DNA from: a virus
Strand: one strand, 5' to 3'
IMG/VR virus record: IMGVR_UViG_3300035670_001318
Location: 1 to 22,626 of that record
Length of the DNA stretch: 22,626 bases
Positions within the stretch are counted from its first letter, which is position 1. Every line of letters begins with the position of its first letter. This document shows, piece by piece, positions 5,958 through 22,187 of the stretch. The position numbers and the translations under genes were made by a program. The notes beneath the pieces are model-generated. The model did no database searches, had not been told where the DNA came from, and saw only the letters and a list, made by a program, of their open reading frames with translations.

Positions 5958-6031
5958 TGACGGGTCGTCTAATGGCAGGACACAGGGTTTTGATCCCTGT
6001 TATCTAGGTTCGAGTCCTAGCCCGTCAGCCA
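5958..6031 (+). tRNA. tRNA-Gln (TTG), CCA encoded
   Basis: A complete 74-nt cloverleaf. The acceptor stem is TGACGGG/CCCGTCA. The D-stem is GTCT/GGAC. The anticodon stem is CAGGG/CCCTG with loop TTTTGAT, so the anticodon is TTG (reads CAA, and CAG by wobble). The T-arm is CTAGG-TTCGAGT-CCTAG. Discriminator G and encoded CCA are at 6028-6031. It lies 4 bp after the last early gene and is probably processed from the early transcript. Its 3' 32 bp overlap the endolysin gene on the other strand. A tRNA 3' end is also a classic integration target, but no integrase is present in the window. Confidence 0.95.
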
Positions 6032-8062: not shown

Positions 8063-10552
8063 TTACGGGCCAGCATCACGCCACTGACCAGTTGAATAGA
8101 AATACAGTTTGTTGTTGGTCGTATCTACGACAATCGGTGCCATGCCGGTGATTGCAGTCGGTGTGCCGGTCGGCGTACCCGCGCAAGTCGGGACATACAA
8201 GAATCCATCTGTGGCGGTGGTGGCGAGGGCTGCGCTGGCTCCTGCGACGATGTTACCGGCAGCGGTAATACGCATCCGTTCGGTGCTTGCCGAATAAAAT
8301 GCAAGTGCTTGATCGGTAATAATGTTTGACAGCCCGCTTTGATGCCCAACCCAAAGCGTTGAGTTAATGCCGTCTGAAGTTCGGAACGAATAATTTTGAC
8401 CGCCAGATGCATAGTATTTAATTACCGACAATCCGGCTTGAGTTGATGCGCTTGTTGTGCCTATTCCGGTATAGCCCGCAAAATAATTATCCGCCGTCCC
8501 GTTTGCATAGAAGTTCCAGCGGTTAGAGCCAGAGGCGATGTTGCTGTAGAAGCCGAAGTTGTTGGTGGCTTCTGTTAAACCGCTTGACGCAAAAAATCCG
8601 TACTGATTGCCAATGGTTGAACCAGCGCCTTTTGCAACCGGATTAGCATAAAAGTGCAACTGGTCAGTCAATGTAAAGGATGCTGCCGCCGTACTAAAGT
8701 TGGACAGAAATCCGTATGCAGCAGACGTTGATCCGCTAGGGCTTGTCCCGCTGCTTGCAATTCCAATAGATGTATTGCTGCTTGTCGGCAAGGTTCCTTT
8801 AATTTGTGTTTTGACGTCCGCATCCGCCGTCCCGCCGATCCCGACGTTGCCGGAGGAGTCAATGCGCATCCGTTCGGTGTAAGTTGTGCCGTCAGACACT
8901 GATATTTGACCAAACGTCATCGCCGCATCTGATGGCGCAAAAGACCGGAAATCCCCCGACTGAACGCCAAAACCTGCTTTTGAATTGCTGCTGCGGAAAA
9001 CAAACAACTTTTGAGCGGTAACGTCGGTGCCTAAATCTAGTTTTGCTCCCGGCGAGGTTGCGCCAATACCGACGTTGCCAGCAAAGTAATTGTCAGCCGT
9101 ACCCGCCATATATACGTTATAGCGGTTGGTACCAGATGCTATGTTTCCGTAGAAACCATAGTTGTTGGTGGCTCCGGTGAGGTTACCGTTAGCAAGAAAA
9201 CCGTACTGATTTGTTACAGTTGACCCTGCGCCAAAAGTATCTTGATTTGTTCTGTAATGAACCAAATCCGATAGGGTAAATGATGCGGCTTGCGTTGAAG
9301 GAAAAGTGTTAAACATCGCCGCAAGCGTAACTGTTCCGCTTGGTATAGTGCCTTTTTGCGCCAAACCGATAGAGAATCCTAAATTTGTAGGATATGTGCC
9401 AAGTACATCAATTTTGGTTTCAGCCCCCGGCGTCCCGCCAATTCCGACATTGCCCGACGTATCGCTAATAACAATCGCCGCCGTGCCGTCTTTTGCTTTG
9501 ACGTTGGTGACTTCTACGTTGGTAGCGTCTACGGTGGTGGCGTTGACGTTTGTAATATTTGCCGTAACGCCGTTCATGGACGCAATAGATGCGCCGGTAA
9601 CGGTCAGCCCTGTTACCACAGCCGTGCCGACGTTAGCCGACGCCACACTAGCTCCGGTCGCCGTCAGCGTTGTTACCGTGCCTGTGGTGATAAGCGCCAC
9701 GCCGACGTTGGCAGAGGCGACCGAGGCACTAGTGGCGGTCAGATTGGTGACGGTGCCGTTGGTGACAACCGCTGTGCCGACGTTGGCCGAGGTGATGGAC
9801 GCACCGGCTGCGCTCAAGTCGGTTATAACCGCCACAGCCGCGTTTGCGGAGGCGGTAGAGACGGTGGGCAGGTCTGACTTGCCCGTAACCGCGAGGGTGC
9901 TACCGAGCGTTGCAGCGCCCGTCACGGCAAACGTGCCGCCGACTGATAGCGCCGAGGTGACCGACACATTGGCTTGCAGGCCGGTGTTGCCCGTAACCGT
10001 CAAGGTGCCGTTGATCGTCGTGTTGCCGAACGAGTTGGCGGCATTGATCATCTGAAAGCGGGTGCCGTCGTAAATCACAACGACAATCTCGCCCGAATTG
10101 ATGTCGCCAGCGGCCAGCGCCGTGCTGCCGTCGCGGGTAATGGCTTTGGCTCCAAGGCCGTCCACGTTCAGCGTCACCGCGCCTGTGTTTGCGCCACCAG
10201 CCACAAAGTAGAACAACTGACCCGCAGCGTAGGCGGTCAGAGTGGGCGACATCGTGCCGAGAACGGTGTCGGTGCCAGTAATGGAGATGAGCTTGGCGAC
10301 GGTGGACTGCACTTGCCCGAGGTTGGCGGCGTCCCCGATCAGCGTACCGTTAGCAAGGCCGGTGATCTTGTTGCTGCCCATCGGGATGTTGGCCGTAGGC
10401 GTGGACTGACCGTCCTTGGTGATGCAGTTCGTTAAGCCCGAGGCAAGGTCTGCCGTCAGGGCGTTAAAGACCGTCGCCGAAATGACGGTGTTGGCAACAA
10501 CGGGCTGACCCGTTGAGTTGATGAGAAATGTGCCGGAACCGTTGAAAGACAT
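8063..10552 (-). CDS. Modular tail fibre / receptor-binding protein
   Basis: 829 residues. The N terminus (1-180) holds small beta domains typical of phage fibres, with GQLFYFVAGGANTGAVTLNV and GEIVVVIYDGTRFQMINAAN. Residues 180-360 are low-complexity Thr/Ala/Val triple-helix-like repeats (for example ASVASANVGTAVVTGLTVTG). Residues 366-497 and 567-697 are two copies of a module starting SGNVGIGGT and containing DNYFAG. The protein ends TTNNKLYFYSTGQWRDAGP, a frequent fibre C terminus. There is no S74 chaperone here; that domain sits in the Gln-rich protein instead. Thr/Ala-rich repeats indicate a trimeric beta-helical shaft. CGAGGT precedes the ATG. It is the most likely host-range determinant. 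Confidence 0.85.
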   Translation of the reverse strand: MSFNGSGTFLINSTGQPVVANTVISATVFNALTADLASGLTNCITKDGQSTPTANIPMGSNKITGLANGTLIGDAANLGQVQSTVAKLISITGTDTVLGTMSPTLTAYAAGQLFYFVAGGANTGAVTLNVDGLGAKAITRDGSTALAAGDINSGEIVVVIYDGTRFQMINAANSFGNTTINGTLTVTGNTGLQANVSVTSALSVGGTFAVTGAATLGSTLAVTGKSDLPTVSTASANAAVAVITDLSAAGASITSANVGTAVVTNGTVTNLTATSASVASANVGVALITTGTVTTLTATGASVASANVGTAVVTGLTVTGASIASMNGVTANITNVNATTVDATNVEVTNVKAKDGTAAIVISDTSGNVGIGGTPGAETKIDVLGTYPTNLGFSIGLAQKGTIPSGTVTLAAMFNTFPSTQAASFTLSDLVHYRTNQDTFGAGSTVTNQYGFLANGNLTGATNNYGFYGNIASGTNRYNVYMAGTADNYFAGNVGIGATSPGAKLDLGTDVTAQKLFVFRSSNSKAGFGVQSGDFRSFAPSDAAMTFGQISVSDGTTYTERMRIDSSGNVGIGGTADADVKTQIKGTLPTSSNTSIGIASSGTSPSGSTSAAYGFLSNFSTAAASFTLTDQLHFYANPVAKGAGSTIGNQYGFFASSGLTEATNNFGFYSNIASGSNRWNFYANGTADNYFAGYTGIGTTSASTQAGLSVIKYYASGGQNYSFRTSDGINSTLWVGHQSGLSNIITDQALAFYSASTERMRITAAGNIVAGASAALATTATDGFLYVPTCAGTPTGTPTAITGMAPIVVDTTNNKLYFYSTGQWRDAGP
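8462..8854 (-). repeat. Fibre module, copy B
   Basis: Encodes fibre residues 567-697, the diverged duplicate of copy A, separated from it by about 70 residues containing TERMRIDSSGNVGIGG. Confidence 0.75.
9062..9457 (-). repeat. Fibre module, copy A
   Basis: Encodes fibre residues 366-497. It shares with copy B the series SGNVGIGGT, a GT-x-PS-x-T loop, AASFTL(S/T)D, GAGST(V/I)-x-NQYGF, ATNN-x-GFY and TADNYFAG. Confidence 0.75.
9593..9805 (-). repeat. Intragenic fibre repeats, 20-26 residues
   Basis: Fibre residues 250-320 contain three consecutive degenerate units of the form AS(I/V)-x-SANVG-x-A-(V/L)-(I/V)-T, followed by TVT-x-LTAT. They probably extend the shaft, and may vary in copy number by slippage. 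Confidence 0.7.
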
Positions 10553-13546: not shown

Positions 13547-13940
13547 AGTCAAAATCTCCTCGGTAACCGCCTCCCTGCGGGGTCGTCAAACCCGGCGACG
13601 AGGGCATACGCGGTCGAGATCCCATGCCGCCCACCTGCGGCGAACGCCCCATCAAGCCACCCGCTCGAGGCATTCCCATTTGCGGCCTGCTCATGCCCAT
13701 CTGCGGGCGCCCGGTCGGCATACCCGGCTGCGGTGACGTCATGGGGCCGTTGAAGTTCATTGCCTGCGGCGGCACACCTGGCGCTGCGTTAGGCGTCGGC
13801 TGCGAGAAAGCCAGGCCAGGCACTTGGCGCATGGCCATATCACGCTGCCCCGGCGGCGCGCCGAGGGACGTATTGCGCTCCTGCGCTGCCAGCATCTGTG
13901 CAAGCTGTTGCGGCCTGCGATCGGGTGAGTATCCGTTCAT
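13533..13940 (-). CDS. Pro/Gly/Met-rich low-complexity virion protein
   Basis: 135 residues. After a short helix (RRPQQLAQMLAAQERN, 8-23) it is disordered, Pro/Gly/Met-rich, with short tandem elements RPQMGMSRPQMGMPRAGG (about 78-95). It overlaps the preceding small gene by ATGA and the next by 14 bp. Stop is TAG at 13533-13535. It is probably a linker or internal component of the ejection apparatus; the function is unknown. Confidence 0.65.
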   Translation of the reverse strand: MNGYSPDRRPQQLAQMLAAQERNTSLGAPPGQRDMAMRQVPGLAFSQPTPNAAPGVPPQAMNFNGPMTSPQPGMPTGRPQMGMSRPQMGMPRAGGLMGRSPQVGGMGSRPRMPSSPGLTTPQGGGYRGDFDYGQD

Positions 13941-14197
13941 GCTAAACCGCCTGTGTTGAATGGCGTGGTGGTGCTATATGTGCGTTTTCCGACGTTTTGC
14001 GCGTTTCGCGCCGTTTGTCGGTTCATCATTTCGCGCATCTTCAGCAGATCTTGCGGGTCAACTGATGCTGACGGCGTTGCCATCATCGGAATCGCTGCGT
14101 AATCGGTGTTGACCGCTTGGTTGGCCTCCTGCATCGCCAACATCTGCGCGAGCTTCTGTGCGTCGGTGCGATCTTTGTACGTTTTGAAGTACGGCAT
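13937..14197 (-). CDS. Small helical virion-associated protein
   Basis: 86 residues, MPYFKTYKDRTDAQKLAQML at the N terminus. The segment LAQMLAMQEAN resembles LAQMLAAQERN in the following gene, suggesting duplication of a short docking helix. The middle is MATPSASVDPQDLLKMREMM, with a polar C terminus. It starts 1 nt after the stop of the Gln-rich gene and ends by ATGA overlap. No family recognised. Confidence 0.65.
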   Translation of the reverse strand: MPYFKTYKDRTDAQKLAQMLAMQEANQAVNTDYAAIPMMATPSASVDPQDLLKMREMMNRQTARNAQNVGKRTYSTTTPFNTGGLA

Positions 14198-14198
14198 A

Positions 14199-16682
14199 TT
14201 AGAGCGCCCCGTAGTTGACCATCTTAAAGCCGCTCGAGTGCGTCAGTACCGCTTCCGGCTTGACCTGCTCCACTTCGTCGGCCATCACGCCAATCTGACG
14301 CTCGCCGAAAATATCGTAGGCGTAGATTCCGATGCCGAGCGAATGCGTACCTAAACGCACAATGTTGGACTTCAAGCGGCGATCGGAAGCCATGATGGCT
14401 GCGCTGCCAAGCGATCCCGCCAAGTTGAACAAACCGCCTGCGTTGGCTGCCGCTTGGTTTGCCGCGATGCCATAACGCTGCATTGCTGCTGCGTCTTGCG
14501 CCTGGCCGCCCTGGAAGATCGGCGCGGGAGCGACGGTGACGCCTTGGTAGCCTTGGAATTGCGGCAGAGCCACCTGACCACCTGACAACAAGGCGCTGAT
14601 CTCGTTGATCGGCATTGAGCGTATCGCTGCCTGTTGCGCGAGAGCTTGTTGGATGGCCGTATTGCGGAACTGTTGCTGCGCGATGCCTTGTTGGAAGGCT
14701 TGTTGTTGCGCGGCATTGATGAAAGCTGCGCGTTGAGCGTCTTGCGCGAACCGCTGCCCAAGGGCGGCGTTGCGAGCTTCTTGCTGCGTAACGGTTTGCC
14801 CAAACAACTGCGCTTGCGCTTGGTTCTGCGCTGCCTGACGCGCCAGTTCTTGCTGCATCGCTTGTTGCTGCGCTTGGTTGTAAAACTGCGCGGCTTCTTG
14901 CGACTGACCGACCTGTTGCGCTTGGCGAGCAAGGTTGGCCTGTTGTGCGGCAAGTTGTTGCTGGAAGTTCTGCCCTGCGGCAGCGTTTTGCAACTCTTGC
15001 ACGTTGACGTTCTGGCCGAAAAGCTGCTGCAACGCTTGGTTGGTCGCTTGGTTTGCGGCCAATTGACGCTCGTAGTTTTGCGCGATGGCTTGGTTTTGCA
15101 GTTCTTGGGCCTGCTGCCCCATGCCAAATTGCGCCATCAACGCTTCTCGGTTGAATTGACCTGTGCCGAGTGCCTGCTGATATGCCTGTTGCTGCGCCTG
15201 ATTTTGCGCCTGCTGTGCAGCGAGGGCTTGGTCAAAGTTCTGACCAATGGCCTGATTGGCAGCCTGTTGCGCTTGTTGTTGGGTGCCAAACGATGCCAGT
15301 TGCGCCTCGCGGCCAAACTCACCCGCTTGCAAACGCTGCTGGAATGCTTGTTGTTGAGCTTGGTTTTGCGCGGCTTGCGTGGCAAGCGACTGTTGGAGGT
15401 TCTGCCCCAACCCGGTGTTATACAGACCGGCTTGCTCCATGCCCGCACCAAAGCCCGAGAGGGCGGCTTGGTTGGCGAACATAGCGCGAGATTGTTGTTC
15501 GTTAAACGCCTGCTGACGCGCTGCTTGATCAAGGCTGATGCCCTGCGCGGCGGCTTGCAGCAGAAGGTCGTTTTCCTTCTGCATCTGTGCGGCCATCGCG
15601 GAGTTATACGCCTCACCACCCGGTCGCAGACCTTGGTTGATGAGTTGCGTTTGTAACGCTTGCCGTTCACCCTGCAACTGCGGTGACAGACGCGACAGGA
15701 TCGCTTGCTGCGCCGTCATGCCGGCGTTGACCGGCCCTTGCGGCAGGTTGCCGATGTCAATTTCGCGTTGCAGTTCTGGCCCTTGGACAAACTGCTGCGC
15801 GTAGCCAAACTGGCCTTGCTGCGGGCCACCGGCCACACCGCCAACGCCTGATAGGTCAAGTCCTTGCAGATTTAACCCTTGCGGGCCTGCACCGGCTAGA
15901 CCAAACATTCCGGCAAAGAACGGCATCTGCGAAACCCGGCTGACGCCCGAGAGGTCAGCGCCTTGCAGTTGCGGTGCAGCAGGGCCGCCTTGCGCCACGC
16001 CATACGCTTCGGCTTGTACGGGCAACTGTGCGCCCTGCACGGCGACGTTGGCTTGCGCCATCTGCCCCGGCCCAACTTGCCCCGGTAACGCTTCCATGCC
16101 GTATTGGCCGGTCGGCGCATATGAGGCTGTCGGTGCTGATCGGATGCCCTGCTGGGCATAACTGATGTCGGTATATCCCGGCGTCTCTTGGCCAGGCAAA
16201 TACCGCTCCATCGGGCCAGAGTAGCCGATGGTGTAATCAATGCTCGGTAGGCTGCTTGTGTCAAACGGCCTGGCTACCGGCAAATCTTTAATGCCATACG
16301 CAGCGTTTTTAGCTGCTAAATTTAACCAGTAATCAGCAGCTTGCTCTTGCTCAAACGCCATCTGACCTAGATCGGTCAGTTTTTGCGTGATGGTCGGCTG
16401 TTCAATGTAGGTAGTAAATGCTGATTCGTCCGGCGCTTCACCTGCCATTTCGGGGTTGGTGAACAACCGCTGCTGGTAGGCTTCCATCGCCTTGTTATAG
16501 GCGTCTCTGTCTACCGTTGGCGTCTTTTGCCAAGTCACCGTCTGCGACCCGGTGGGGCCGTAGATGTTGGGATTGGACATATAGGCCGTTTGCTTGGCTG
16601 CTGCCAAGTTTTCGGCTCCTTGCTGCCGCGCTAACGCGGCGTAATCAGGTGCTGGCGGTGGCGCCGGTGATCTTTTGCCCAT
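14199..16682 (-). CDS. Gln-rich virion protein with C-terminal S74 chaperone domain
   Basis: 827 residues. The N terminus (1-320) is Pro/Gly-rich (KRSPAPPPAPDYAALARQQG). Residues 320-690 are extremely Gln/Ala/Asn-rich with 54-residue tandem repeats, likely a long helical or coiled-coil rod. Residues 766-827 are an intramolecular chaperone domain of the peptidase S74 type (SDRRLKSNIVRLGTHSLGIG, then GVMADEVEQVKPEAVLTHSS and MVNYGAL), with the Ser766-x4-Lys771 dyad expected to cleave just before Ser766 after trimerisation. The S74 domain normally folds fibres or spikes; here it follows a Gln-rich rod next to ejection proteins. It could be a short tail fibre or an internal rod. Confidence in S74 is high, in the role moderate. 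Confidence 0.8.
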   Translation of the reverse strand: MGKRSPAPPPAPDYAALARQQGAENLAAAKQTAYMSNPNIYGPTGSQTVTWQKTPTVDRDAYNKAMEAYQQRLFTNPEMAGEAPDESAFTTYIEQPTITQKLTDLGQMAFEQEQAADYWLNLAAKNAAYGIKDLPVARPFDTSSLPSIDYTIGYSGPMERYLPGQETPGYTDISYAQQGIRSAPTASYAPTGQYGMEALPGQVGPGQMAQANVAVQGAQLPVQAEAYGVAQGGPAAPQLQGADLSGVSRVSQMPFFAGMFGLAGAGPQGLNLQGLDLSGVGGVAGGPQQGQFGYAQQFVQGPELQREIDIGNLPQGPVNAGMTAQQAILSRLSPQLQGERQALQTQLINQGLRPGGEAYNSAMAAQMQKENDLLLQAAAQGISLDQAARQQAFNEQQSRAMFANQAALSGFGAGMEQAGLYNTGLGQNLQQSLATQAAQNQAQQQAFQQRLQAGEFGREAQLASFGTQQQAQQAANQAIGQNFDQALAAQQAQNQAQQQAYQQALGTGQFNREALMAQFGMGQQAQELQNQAIAQNYERQLAANQATNQALQQLFGQNVNVQELQNAAAGQNFQQQLAAQQANLARQAQQVGQSQEAAQFYNQAQQQAMQQELARQAAQNQAQAQLFGQTVTQQEARNAALGQRFAQDAQRAAFINAAQQQAFQQGIAQQQFRNTAIQQALAQQAAIRSMPINEISALLSGGQVALPQFQGYQGVTVAPAPIFQGGQAQDAAAMQRYGIAANQAAANAGGLFNLAGSLGSAAIMASDRRLKSNIVRLGTHSLGIGIYAYDIFGERQIGVMADEVEQVKPEAVLTHSSGFKMVNYGAL
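15084..15407 (-). repeat. Two 54-residue tandem repeats in the Gln-rich protein
   Basis: Residues 426-479 and 480-533 align without gaps. Each begins GQN-x-x-Q-x-LA, contains QNQAQQQA(F/Y)QQ and (E/Q)F-x-REA, and ends NQAI. A shortened third unit starts at 534 (AQNYERQLAANQATNQALQQ). By my count 37 of these 108 residues are glutamine. Confidence 0.8.
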
Positions 16683-17085
16683 ACCGAGGCTCCAAATAAC
16701 GACACTTGTCTGGTGTCTGCGTCATAAAAACAATGTCTCCATCGGGTGCGGCGTTTTTAATCCGCGCTTCCTCTGAAAACCCCATTTTCGTGACCAATTT
16801 GAGCGCGCGGGTATGCTTGCTGCTGATTGGCCCTATGATCTTATCAACATTTGCGACGTTATAGGGATAGTCATATACCGCGGCGAGGTATGCCGGGGTA
16901 ATCTGATCCCAAGTGATGTGACAAACGACCGATCTGCCGTTCCACATCTCATAAACCGTACCGGCAACCAGCTCACCGTCTTTCTCGAGGCCAATGGCGA
17001 CAGAACGGTCAGCGTGATAGCCGCCGTCCGTGCGCGACATGACCCAATGGCCCACATGGGGGCCGTTTACGATGCGCCAGCCCAT
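16645..17085 (-). CDS. GNAT-family N-acetyltransferase
   Basis: 146 residues from ATG 17085 (MGWRIVNGPHVGHWVMSRTD). A start 11 codons upstream (17118) is possible, but neither has a good ribosome binding site and the shorter form fits the domain. Core strands are VAIGLEKDGELVAGTVYEMW (about 29-48) and SVVCHITWDQITPAYLAAVY. The family's acetyl-CoA region is followed by IGPISSKHTRALKLVTKMGF, the usual N-x-x-A-x-x-x-x-x-K-x-GF GNAT ending, and EEARI. Transfers an acetyl group from acetyl-CoA to an amine. It overlaps both neighbours in the late structural operon, so a virion or host-surface protein could be its target (inference). Similar genes occur in other short-tailed phages. Confidence 0.75.
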   Translation of the reverse strand: MGWRIVNGPHVGHWVMSRTDGGYHADRSVAIGLEKDGELVAGTVYEMWNGRSVVCHITWDQITPAYLAAVYDYPYNVANVDKIIGPISSKHTRALKLVTKMGFSEEARIKNAAPDGDIVFMTQTPDKCRYLEPRYGQKITGATAST

Positions 17086-18644
17086 CCGAGTTGATAAACA
17101 ACGTCCGTTGATGCCCATTCCAAGGAGACGTTCTTGCTGGCGCTGTTGAAAACCAAGCCGCCGCAGTAACCGATGCCTTGGATACCTACGAAATTGTTAG
17201 TGATGATGAGATCCGCACCCCACACCGACTGATTCCACAGCCCAACGTCCCACAGCCCGTATTGCGTTGCCACGAACGACAGCGCGCCAAGGTCGGCGTT
17301 GGTCTGGAAATCCACGTTCATGCCGATGTTGATGGTCGGCTGACCGTTGCTATATAGCGTCGGGCGAGCGCGGGTGAAATACTTGATGACGCCTCGCGTC
17401 TCAAAGTAATTAAACGCCTGCAACGCGCGGGTGTTGATGGCCACTCCATCATCATTGAAACCAGTTGTGCCAGTTCCTGTCGTCCAAGCCTCGGCAACAT
17501 AGCCGTTACCGCCGAAATACGGTTTATCGTTGAGCAATGCAAAGCAGTTTGCCGCCCATCCCGTAAATCGACACCAGGCTTTTGTGATGTTGTTCATCAC
17601 AAATTGCTCTTGGTTGCCCGTGCTAACCGGCACGTTGACGATAAGAGCGTTATTCAGCGGGTTGTATAGCAATGCCCAGCCAAAACTGGACTTGTACGTT
17701 CGTGCCGCAGCTGCAAATGCGCCTTGGATTTTGTCCGACAACGCGACCTGCGGATCTAGTCGTGACGATTGCAGCGCCGACGCAAACGGAATCAAGCCGT
17801 CAAGCGTCAAAATCAGCAAATCGCCGCCGTATTTCTGCACACAACGGCGAGAAATGGGAGAGCCAATGATCCAAACACCAATCAACGCCCAGGTAGAGGC
17901 GCTTGAGGGATCGGTGCCGCGGTAGACGATGACTTCGCCCTGATCGGTAATGAAAACGAGGTTGTCGTCAACGCCATAACCTGCGTCAATCGTCCATGAC
18001 GCCATCGCAATGAGCGTACCGCCCAAATGAGCGACCGAGGACAGATCAAGCACTTGTGCCGCACCACCCACCGAAGCTGTCGGCAAGTACCACGCTTTGA
18101 GCGTGTTTTTCTGAATAAACCACATCCTGTTTTTGAACAGAGTGGGTTGAATTAAATCAGTTGTCGTGACGCCCGTAATGGCAGGGCTGGATGCGCCGTC
18201 AATCGGCGTCCAAGTGGTACCGTCAAACAGTAACGGCTTGTCAACACCGTTGGCGGTATACAAATATCCGCCGCCCGACGTTGTGATGTTGGTGAATTCC
18301 CAGCGACTGTTAGAAAGGCCGGTGACTTTCGCAGCACCGACCGCCCCTGCCGAGGTGACGTCATAGATGTTGCCGCCAACGACGGCATACATCTTATCGT
18401 TTGTGCCAGCGTTATAGACGAGCAGGCTTTCTACCTGGCCCGTCATGCCGGTGGCGTGTTTGGCATAACCTCCGCGCAGCGACACGCTCGAAACGCCTGG
18501 GAACAGGTTATCAAGCGTTACCGCATCAGTCGGCGCCATGTTGGCGAGCGAGTCGCGGGCGTTCCAGCCACCGACAGGCGCCGGTAATGACGCCACGTTG
18601 TTGGTGGTGCGCTGGATTAGCCGTCTGCGAACGGGCGACGCCAT
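17067..18644 (-). CDS. Beta-rich tail nozzle / stabilisation protein
   Basis: 525 residues with repeated beta blades: MASPVRRRLIQRTTNNVASL then LPAPVGGWNARDSLANM (about 20-36), a common opening of phage stabilisation or tail-hub proteins; blades such as LFDGTTWTPIDG, VLDLSSVAHLGGTLIAMASW, VVYRGTDPSSASTW-like, GGDLLILTLDGLIPFASALQ and KPYFGGNGYVAEAWTTGTGT. The pattern of successive four-stranded units suggests a propeller, as in P22 gp10-like and related nozzle proteins. The position after the adaptor gene (TAATG overlap) and before fibre/ejection genes supports a tail nozzle role. Family identity is by pattern only. Confidence 0.65.
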   Translation of the reverse strand: MASPVRRRLIQRTTNNVASLPAPVGGWNARDSLANMAPTDAVTLDNLFPGVSSVSLRGGYAKHATGMTGQVESLLVYNAGTNDKMYAVVGGNIYDVTSAGAVGAAKVTGLSNSRWEFTNITTSGGGYLYTANGVDKPLLFDGTTWTPIDGASSPAITGVTTTDLIQPTLFKNRMWFIQKNTLKAWYLPTASVGGAAQVLDLSSVAHLGGTLIAMASWTIDAGYGVDDNLVFITDQGEVIVYRGTDPSSASTWALIGVWIIGSPISRRCVQKYGGDLLILTLDGLIPFASALQSSRLDPQVALSDKIQGAFAAAARTYKSSFGWALLYNPLNNALIVNVPVSTGNQEQFVMNNITKAWCRFTGWAANCFALLNDKPYFGGNGYVAEAWTTGTGTTGFNDDGVAINTRALQAFNYFETRGVIKYFTRARPTLYSNGQPTINIGMNVDFQTNADLGALSFVATQYGLWDVGLWNQSVWGADLIITNNFVGIQGIGYCGGLVFNSASKNVSLEWASTDVVYQLGWAGAS

Positions 18645-20122: not shown

Positions 20123-20935
20123 TTACAGACTTACTTCGTTAACCGTCAGAATCACGGCGGGTATCGCCGGGTAAACTGACGTTGCTGACGCAGCAAGCAG
20201 AACCACGTTTGTACTGTCTGCCGTCCACATCAACTCCACATACTGTCCCGCAGTAAGGGACAGCATAAAATTCCATGAGGCAACCGTTTCTGCGTCGTTG
20301 CCTTTGATGCGTAGTGTACTCGCAGAGTCAGGCACATTGGTGCCATTGACTCGCGGCCATATCCACACCTGTTGGTCGCCGCCCGAGGTGTTATCCACTT
20401 GTGCTGAAAATTGGATGTCGTACACGCCTGTGTCGGCTACTACCACACGCGAGGCAGGACTGCCGATGGACACGCCGTAGGCGGGCGTAATGGTCGTAAA
20501 TACAACAGCGGTGGCTTCGTTAGCTGATGCAAGGGTTTGCGTCGGAGTGGCTATTAGGCCGCCGTAACGCTTCTTTGGCAGTTGCTTATAACCTTGCAGC
20601 GTCACCCATGTCGTGTTGGAGGTTGCCGACAGCAGCACAGAGCCACCGGGCAGCAACTCGCTGCTAACCGCACCATTAATCGTACTATTCGTGTCGTAAG
20701 GGTAAACGGTCAGTACATCGCTGCCCGAGTTGACGATTTCAATAGTCTCGCCCTGCTCGGTCTGCGGCAATTTCACGCCCGTTCCCGAGGTGACGTTGTT
20801 GTAGACGAACGTGAGTTGCGTGGCATCGCCTGCTGACGTACCAGCAGCCGTCACCGCAGCATTGCCGTCACCGCAAATGGAGACGGTGGATAGGCCGTTG
20901 ATGCCCGATCCAAGTACGCGAGAGGGAATAGCCAT
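20123..20935 (-). CDS. C1q-like jelly-roll virion protein
   Basis: 270 residues. Residues 20-115 are a beta domain (TQLTFVYNNVTSGTGVKLPQ, GETIEIVNSGSDVLTVYPYD, GGSVLLSATSNTTW). Residues 140-268 form a C1q/TNF-like jelly roll (GVYDIQFSAQVDNTSGGDQQ, WIWPRVNGTN, SWNFMLSLTAGQYVELMWTA). Such trimeric domains decorate heads or fibres in phages. Its ATG overlaps the previous stop (ATGA) and lacks a strong ribosome binding site, so translation is coupled to the DUF115-like gene. It is probably a head fibre or decoration component. Confidence 0.7.
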   Translation of the reverse strand: MAIPSRVLGSGINGLSTVSICGDGNAAVTAAGTSAGDATQLTFVYNNVTSGTGVKLPQTEQGETIEIVNSGSDVLTVYPYDTNSTINGAVSSELLPGGSVLLSATSNTTWVTLQGYKQLPKKRYGGLIATPTQTLASANEATAVVFTTITPAYGVSIGSPASRVVVADTGVYDIQFSAQVDNTSGGDQQVWIWPRVNGTNVPDSASTLRIKGNDAETVASWNFMLSLTAGQYVELMWTADSTNVVLLAASATSVYPAIPAVILTVNEVSL

Positions 20936-21708
20936 CAGGCTGCCATCCGTTCGTGACGCACTCGCATGATCTCGGCAATCAAGCCGGGGCCACGCGCATC
21001 CACGTTGATGTCGCCCATCACCTCAAAGAGTTTCTGGAATTCGTTGGCTTGCTGGGCCATTGCCATGTTGCAGTTGAACTTCTTGCCGGTCGGGCCGCCT
21101 ACCCATACGTCAATTGCAGGGCCGGTGTGTTCGCCCGTAAATCGCTTCAAGCCATCTGCCCGGTTGCAGCTGTCGTAACCGTACAGCACGAAGTTGCGGA
21201 ACCCGAGCAGATAGCCAATGTTGATGGCACGAAGTCCCGATGTCGTCCCGCCACCCACGGCGAGCTTGTTCGGGCCAATTGCCTGCATCTCGGGGCCGTC
21301 TGCCCAGGAATGCCACAGCCATACGTTTTTGCCTTTGAGGTAATCAAACGTGACGGGTGGGCAGCGTGAGGCGACGAGGTACACGGTACGATCGTTGGCC
21401 TTTTGGATGCCGCTAGTGCGGTCACGCGGATCTAGATTGACCCACAAATCAGGCTGGATGCCGTTCTCGCACAGGAAGTCATGCGCTGCCTTAATCGCCA
21501 CGATGGGCCGACCGGCTTTGCGGTGCGCTCTGATTTCCTCTACGAAATCGGGCATAGACCACCCACTCGCCACGCACACGAATGTTCCATCGTGCTTGAT
21601 GGGAGTGGGCGTCAGTTCTGGTAGACCACGGCCAAGCGCCGAGCGGATGTTAGAGCAAAGCTCCTCCGCCGTACCCGCCGCCTGAACCGTGATCTCCAGA
21701 GGCTGCAT
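20935..21708 (-). CDS. DUF115/MptE-like Rossmann-fold protein
   Basis: 257 residues from ATG 21708 (MQPLEITVQAAGTAEELCSN); a start 17 codons upstream overlaps the previous gene and is not supported. The Rossmann pattern is TFVCVASGWSMPDFVEEIRA (42-61), PIVAIKAAHDFLCENGIQPD (68-87), LWVNLDPRDR (88-97), VWLWHSWADG, VGGGTTSGLRAINIGYLLGF (151-170) and NFVLYGYDSC (172-181). This is the DUF115/MAF_flag10 (MptE-like) pattern, found in proteins linked to flagellin glycosylation and in many phages. The enzymatic role in phages is not settled. It sits between capsid decoration and C1q-like genes, so virion glycosylation is a possibility (inference). Confidence 0.75.
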   Translation of the reverse strand: MQPLEITVQAAGTAEELCSNIRSALGRGLPELTPTPIKHDGTFVCVASGWSMPDFVEEIRAHRKAGRPIVAIKAAHDFLCENGIQPDLWVNLDPRDRTSGIQKANDRTVYLVASRCPPVTFDYLKGKNVWLWHSWADGPEMQAIGPNKLAVGGGTTSGLRAINIGYLLGFRNFVLYGYDSCNRADGLKRFTGEHTGPAIDVWVGGPTGKKFNCNMAMAQQANEFQKLFEVMGDINVDARGPGLIAEIMRVRHERMAA

Positions 21709-21710
21709 CG

Positions 21711-22187
21711 TTAGAACCCGACAACGCCCGTGGCGATGTGCGGATAGCCCGCGATGCAAGTGACAGCGGAAGCCGAAGCCGCCGACGTCGTGGCCACAAG
21801 GCCCGCCACCAAGCCGCCCGTCACGGTCGCGTCGTCAAGGACGCCGCCCGTGGCAGTCGTGAACAACGGCACCGACGGCTCGCAAGCCGTAGCGACGTTG
21901 ACACGCGGCTTACCGCCCAACTGCACCCAGCCGTAAGAGGCAGAGGCAATGGACACTTGAGCAAAGCCAACAGCCTTGCTACCAGCCGAGTTGGTGGTGG
22001 TCAACGGGACCACGGAATCGTCTACGCGAACGGAAACCGCCGCGTAAGCCGCTACCGCAGAAGCCGCCTGAACGTACACAGCCTGCCCACCGTCGTCCAA
22101 GTTCACGGTCGTGCCGAGATTGAACACGGGAGAAGTGTCTACGTTGCCGAGAGCCACGCCAATGACACCAGAGGTAGAAATTGCCAT
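21711..22187 (-). CDS. Head decoration / capsid-associated protein
   Basis: 158 residues, MAISTSGVIGVALGNVDTSP at the N terminus, rich in Ala/Val/Thr with many short beta segments (GGQAVYVQAASAVAAYAAVS, VGFAQVSIASASYGWVQLGG). AAGGAG precedes the ATG at 22187. Directly after the major capsid gene, this position and composition fit a head decoration or stabilising protein (DUF2190-like in flavour). No signal peptide or enzyme motif. Confidence 0.65.
   Translation of the reverse strand: MAISTSGVIGVALGNVDTSPVFNLGTTVNLDDGGQAVYVQAASAVAAYAAVSVRVDDSVVPLTTTNSAGSKAVGFAQVSIASASYGWVQLGGKPRVNVATACEPSVPLFTTATGGVLDDATVTGGLVAGLVATTSAASASAVTCIAGYPHIATGVVGF

Follow-up and report, generated by a model that had tools for sequence, protein, structure and literature searches.

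A coil-less Peptidase_S74 domain at the end of a Gln-rich, probable first ejection protein of a podophage

S74 domains trimerise fibres and tailspikes, such as T5 pb1 and the K1F endosialidase. In the viral record IMGVR_UViG_3300035670_001318, analysed here over its whole 22,626 nt (the window), the sole S74 domain ends a Gln-rich protein of 827 aa and the long tail fibre has none: which kind of protein is this, and what does the domain do there? The original prediction proposed a novel needle or rod, trimerised by S74 and released by self-cleavage before Ser766. Its description of the locus was accurate. The S74-bearing ORF lies where it was placed (Table 1); the domain exceeds the PF13884 cut-off on aa 766–813 (E 2.2e-5, 25.1 bits versus 22), with Ser766 and Lys771 as claimed; profile searches match 6f45 (E 8e-8) and 7dc3 (E 0.004); and the 829-aa fibre has neither an S74 nor any other Pfam match. 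The 370-residue Gln/Ala/Asn region and its 54-residue repeats are likewise borne out by composition (Gln 28%, Ala 21% and Asn 7% over residues 331–700) and by composition-preserving shuffles (score 1.16 at lag 54, z = 12; best shuffle maximum 0.30).

Table 1. Features of the S74-bearing gene and its neighbours (positions in the window)
Feature	Position	Strand	Basis
Whole S74-bearing ORF, 827 aa, S74 at the C-terminus (ATG at 16682, stop at 14199)	14199..16682	-	ORF call, PF13884, PHROGs
aa 1-147, N-terminal conserved part of the short family (hmm 1-117)	16242..16682	-	body HMM
aa 148-303, Gly/Pro/Gln-rich insertion, predicted disorder, not in short orthologs	15774..16241	-	
aa 304-451, conserved core (L-P..., NQG..GGEAYN), predicted helical hairpin	15330..15773	-	
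aa 425-690, Gln/Ala-rich array, 18-residue units, 54-residue super-repeat	14613..15410	-	
aa 691-708, family-conserved PINEISALLSGGQV motif	14559..14612	-	
aa 745-765, weakly hydrophobic Gly/Ala-rich segment	14388..14450	-	S74-less orthologs stop within it
aa 766-827, Peptidase_S74 without coil, putative cut before Ser766, Lys771 at +5	14202..14387	-	
GNAT-type acetyltransferase, P22 gp14 / IVPA position	16645..17118	-	phrog_4470 E 3.6e-26; PMC10386132
Tail nozzle / tubular tail B type protein	17067..18644	-	phrog_5107 E 2.6e-124; homolog annotated tubular tail B
Probable second ejection protein, 418 aa	12296..13552	-	weak; via the 550-aa protein of L010
Probable third ejection protein, 575 aa	10596..12323	-	position and Gly-rich weakly hydrophobic stretches
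Long tail fibre, 829 aa, without S74	8063..10552	-	Pfam search

The 827-aa protein matches phrog_6121 (PHROGs, E 3.5e-50), with a secondary match to phrog_4287, labelled "DNA ejection protein". A body HMM, built after cutting away the S74 from eleven short relatives (those of Mx8, PhiGT1, pCB2047-C, RHph_N2, EBPR podovirus 2, BUCT555, MW202489 and four viral contigs), recognises it with E 1.3e-32—E-values from our Python scripts refer to very small databases—in three colinear blocks, aa 1–147, 304–451 and 656–762. The protein thus reads as one of the short family enlarged by two insertions, residues 148–303 and the Gln-rich array. Fold prediction, from an alignment drawn on the loci of our relatives scan (L-numbers) and not on annotated phage records, gave helix/strand/helix for aa 1–147 with pLDDT up to 89, the two models as a whole being weak (pLDDT 51.1 and 60.8); this weakness accounts for the empty Foldseek search of the PDB with both models. 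Against BFVD, Foldseek returned only family members, named "Intramolecular chaperone auto-processing domain containing protein".

As expected of phrog_6121 members, the gene follows those of the nozzle and of the acetyltransferase; the latter overlaps its start by 38 nt. The order nozzle, acetyltransferase, S74 protein, lytic or internal virion proteins is common to PhiGT1, pCB2047-C, RHph_N2, EBPR podovirus 2 and BUCT555, and the short podophage relatives overall (about 260–350 aa) lie between a gp14/IVPA-type acetyltransferase and lytic ejection proteins. The acetyltransferase of PhiGT1 has been equated with P22 gene 14 and T7 IVPA (PMC10386132). In P22 the needle gene 26 stands before gene 14, and gene 7, encoding a DNA ejection protein, comes next after it: the slot of the 827-aa protein is that of gp7. 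Its body has no homology to gp7 detectable by HMM or hhalign, so that the link to gp7 is one of position and architecture only. The claim that the gene lies beside ejection proteins holds by gene order and by the relatives; on the other hand, neither the 418-aa nor the 575-aa neighbour matches a family by itself. The former matches, at its N-terminus, a 550-aa protein of L010, which in turn resembles phrog_2534, the P22 gp20-type family, but weakly (E 1.4e-4). Altogether, we consider that the 827-aa protein is very probably an ejection protein.

Some further features of the surroundings may be recorded here. The label "amidase" of phrog_5107 is a misnomer for the nozzle/tubular tail B protein, and has been copied into RefSeq records. 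An ORF of 86 aa (13937–14197, minus strand) lies directly downstream of the S74 gene and is missing there in L010. Within the head gene cluster are found an MptE-like protein (PF01973, E 1.4e-14; 20935–21759, minus strand) and a protein with a BclA_C-like C-terminal domain (20123–20935, minus strand; E 1.5e-4, below the curated cut-off), possibly a head decoration or fibre protein. A tRNA-Gln (TTG; 5958–6031, plus strand) adjoins the phage lysozyme gene, in the same phage that encodes a Gln-rich virion protein.

The array has a base unit of 18 residues, with periodicity peaks at 18, 36, 54, 72, 90 and 108; on the DNA, TRF does not detect its repeats, which are too diverged. Measured between the anchors E/Q-N-D and P-x-N-E, the segment spans 192, 246, 264, 282, 300, 318 (the target), 336, 354, 444, 462 or 516 residues in the homologs (L003–L053), and all differences among these 11 lengths are multiples of 18, as would result from recombination between 54-nt repeats; the short relative L083, which has no array, falls outside this series. 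Within the units a sharp hydrophobic period of 4.5 residues appears, with Phe, Tyr or Leu at position 5 in most of them, and they are helical in the low-confidence models.

The S74 tail is of a particular type. Its chain ends 61 residues past the Ser, and ejection-type copies generally end 60–85 residues past it, with few exceptions (1/99; BUCT555, 89), whereas the fibre-type S74 of the same phage group extends 89–107 residues and carries a C-terminal coiled coil such as KAIQELTARVAELEAK. Compared with the intramolecular chaperones (CIMCD/ICA) of endosialidase, T5 pb1 and MYRF, the target shares the PF13884 core and the Ser-Lys pair spaced by five, but it has neither the C-terminal coil nor a predicted upstream beta-helix; our low-confidence models place a helix there instead. 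In MYRF trimerisation depends chiefly on the coil, the trimer is required for cleavage, and mutating either Ser or Lys abolishes cleavage (PMC8326128). The predicted trimerisation by S74 is thus not supported. At the opposite, the view that the carrier is unusual and its catalytic-type pair strongly constrained is supported: Ser, Asp at +1 and Lys at +5 are invariant in 156 of 156 distinct S74 copies, internal ones included, although the HMM that gathered them was seeded on SD-containing examples and may bias toward invariance. Five columns are invariant in all, Ala at +35 and Pro at +43 being equally so. With a dN/dS of about 0.04–0.15 the domain is under purifying selection, which rules out a vestigial S74; and the low dS of this C-terminal cassette on otherwise diverged backbones suggests that the cassette is exchanged.

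Some relatives nevertheless do without it. In L010, L011 and L031 the same protein lacks S74 and ends with GGPLGGAIGKGLFGG or similar; L027 and L031 are near-identical in DNA around the site, the S74 codons being cleanly present in the one and absent in the other. The proteins of MW202489 and of loci L114, L117 and L118 likewise end in the Gly/Ala-rich segment, whose hydrophobicity maximum in the target (1.16 on the Kyte-Doolittle scale) is below that of a usual transmembrane helix. Since the scan included the S74 peptide among its patterns, such relatives are under-sampled. The fibre ORFs of two of them (L010:14031–17279 and L011:10025–13141) end with a canonical S74 and coiled coil; that of L010 has the same start as the fibre of the window and a different end. 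This suggested one S74 per genome, on either the fibre or the ejection protein, an idea ruled out by 7 of 50 records with two; several phages bear S74 on both proteins, so that the two occurrences are independent.

In the relatives of another ejection protein the domain is internal. In MW202675 "internal virion protein D" and about 80 viral contigs, an S74 of the target's type again belongs to the gene after the acetyltransferase gene, but one or two internal copies and a lytic transglycosylase are, unlike in the target, joined in a single ORF. The S74 of these relatives lies 757–1360 residues from the ORF end; of their closed frames, 36 have one copy and 14 have two, with Ser and Lys in all. 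Their N-terminal body is homologous to the unfused gp27 of Sinorhizobium phage phiM5, whose S74 is C-terminal (E 4e-17). Read from these sequences, the S74 domains are located where separable ejection proteins meet; this speaks for a cutting role and, as if a polyprotein were being cut, makes self-cleavage plausible. We regard self-cleavage by the target's own S74 as quite possible, if short of probable. The single ORFs of L094 (8179–11736) and L121–L200, in which one or two internal S74 domains are flanked by an ejection-type body on one side and a lytic transglycosylase part on the other (in L094, PF01464 is downstream of S74), might be self-cutting ejection polyproteins.

We propose the following explanation, which as a whole seems to us somewhat probable. 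In a podophage whose structural module is of the Mx8/PhiGT1 type, the 827-aa protein would be packaged and act as the first ejection (internal virion) protein. Two insertions extend its conserved body, and one of these, the array, consists of probably alpha-helical 18-residue units that can be gained or lost one at a time. The coil-less S74 would cut itself off before Ser766 during assembly, thereby exposing a C-terminus that is rich in Gly and Ala and possibly membrane-active, as in the S74-less orthologs and P22 gp7. This end might then take part in crossing the membrane, a role proposed for the T7 gp14 class, to which a review assigns P22 gp7 (PMC8954989). Presence in the virion, ejection, self-cleavage and a membrane role are what we infer here. 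Some points speak against this explanation: no homology to gp7 was detected in the body, the Gly/Ala-rich segment is less hydrophobic than a usual transmembrane helix, the fold models are weak and, by analogy, cleavage of MYRF depends on a trimer that its coil keeps together (PMC8326128), a coil that the target lacks.

The same missing coil can be turned to another account, in which the S74 tail is a non-cutting docking, folding or oligomerisation domain, its Ser and Lys being kept for the fold or an interface. The Ala and Pro columns, just as invariant, agree with it, and an uncut fused chain would hold the ejection proteins together at a fixed ratio; but the residues of MYRF cleavage are precisely those kept in every copy, even the internal ones, and orthologs without S74 exist, so that we find it rather unlikely. 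As for the needle or rod, an external trimer that S74 would fold and self-cleavage would release, the repeats are predicted to make a long helical rod, the gene adjoins tail genes, and trimerising is what S74 does for fibres and tailspikes. However the family (phrog_6121, virion/ejection) and the gp7 position are those of ejection proteins, the P22 needle gp26 is a separate gene, the protein does not match the needle families phrog_1219 and phrog_1030 in PHROGs, coil and predicted beta-helix are lacking, and the persistence of S74-less orthologs indicates that S74 is unnecessary for building a rod. This part of the original prediction is hence abandoned as very improbable.

Tape measure proteins have periodic aromatic repeats and are ejected before the DNA. 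A similar role could be imagined for the array, which would set the reach of an ejected periplasmic tube, the S74 being incidental: its length varies by steps of 18 only, an aromatic residue or Leu recurs at a fixed place of most units, and the hydrophobic period is sharp. Multiples of 18 would, however, arise from unequal recombination between 54-nt repeats alone, and the array is wholly missing in the short relatives; we hold this role to be improbable, and retain the self-cut ejection protein as the preferred reading.

The occurrence of S74 extends beyond the target. S74 C-termini of the same type are found on annotated ejection, injection or transfer proteins—the virion and ejection annotations of relatives being the depositors' wording—of Salmonella phage 7-11, Pseudoalteromonas H6/1 and Vibrio 199E37-1, and similar ones in PAE2 and PVA1. 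The statement that S74 usually ends fibres was therefore too restrictive, given that the first ejection protein bears it in several podophage groups. The bodies of the 7-11, H6/1, 199E37-1, PAE2, PVA1 and phiM5 groups have no relation to the target body detectable by HMM. Several first ejection proteins of unrelated kinds and the joints of fused ones have in common a separable domain with an invariant catalytic-type pair. In podophage ejection proteins at large, the coil-less S74 might even serve as a self-cleavage module: where C-terminal, it would trim the first ejection protein so that a membrane-active Gly-rich end is exposed, and where one or two copies are internal, they would divide a fused polyprotein, all without the trimeric coiled coil supposed to be necessary for S74; this generalisation we advance with some doubt. 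The maturation of ejection proteins, and their solubility and silence inside the head, are poorly known, and the recurrent S74 offers a testable handle. Annotators should beware of labels such as "tail fiber domain-containing" or "tailspike/chaperone", which such genes often carry wrongly. Our literature search found no paper on S74 in ejection proteins, and the PhiGT1 paper handles the internal virion proteins only briefly (PMC10386132).

Among known systems, P22 gp7 (phrog_598, E 2e-95) resembles the target by its position after a gp14-type gene, its Gly-rich C-terminus and its rank as first of three ejection proteins; it differs in having no S74, in being trimmed at its N-terminus and in its body. 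Its relatives in PAE2, H6/1 and 199E37-1, whose S74 proteins match phrog_598, do bear S74 as the target does, and the phrog_6121 matches of such gp7-type proteins may rest on S74 itself. The phiM5 gp27 (phiM5_27), the one such protein recorded as detected in the particle proteome, has like the target an S74 C-terminus and adjoins internal virion proteins, three in its case, but it has no repeat array, its body is non-homologous by HMM, and it was deposited as "putative tailspike". Finally, Mx8 p54, PhiGT1 gp17, pCB2047-C SUBG_00009 and RHph_N2 EVC05_012, all of phrog_6121, share with the target a homologous body, an equal gene position and a coil-less C-terminal S74 with its Ser and Lys; they are only about 330–345 aa long, without the Gln-rich array and the Gly-rich insertion. 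The phrog_6121 family is a known one.
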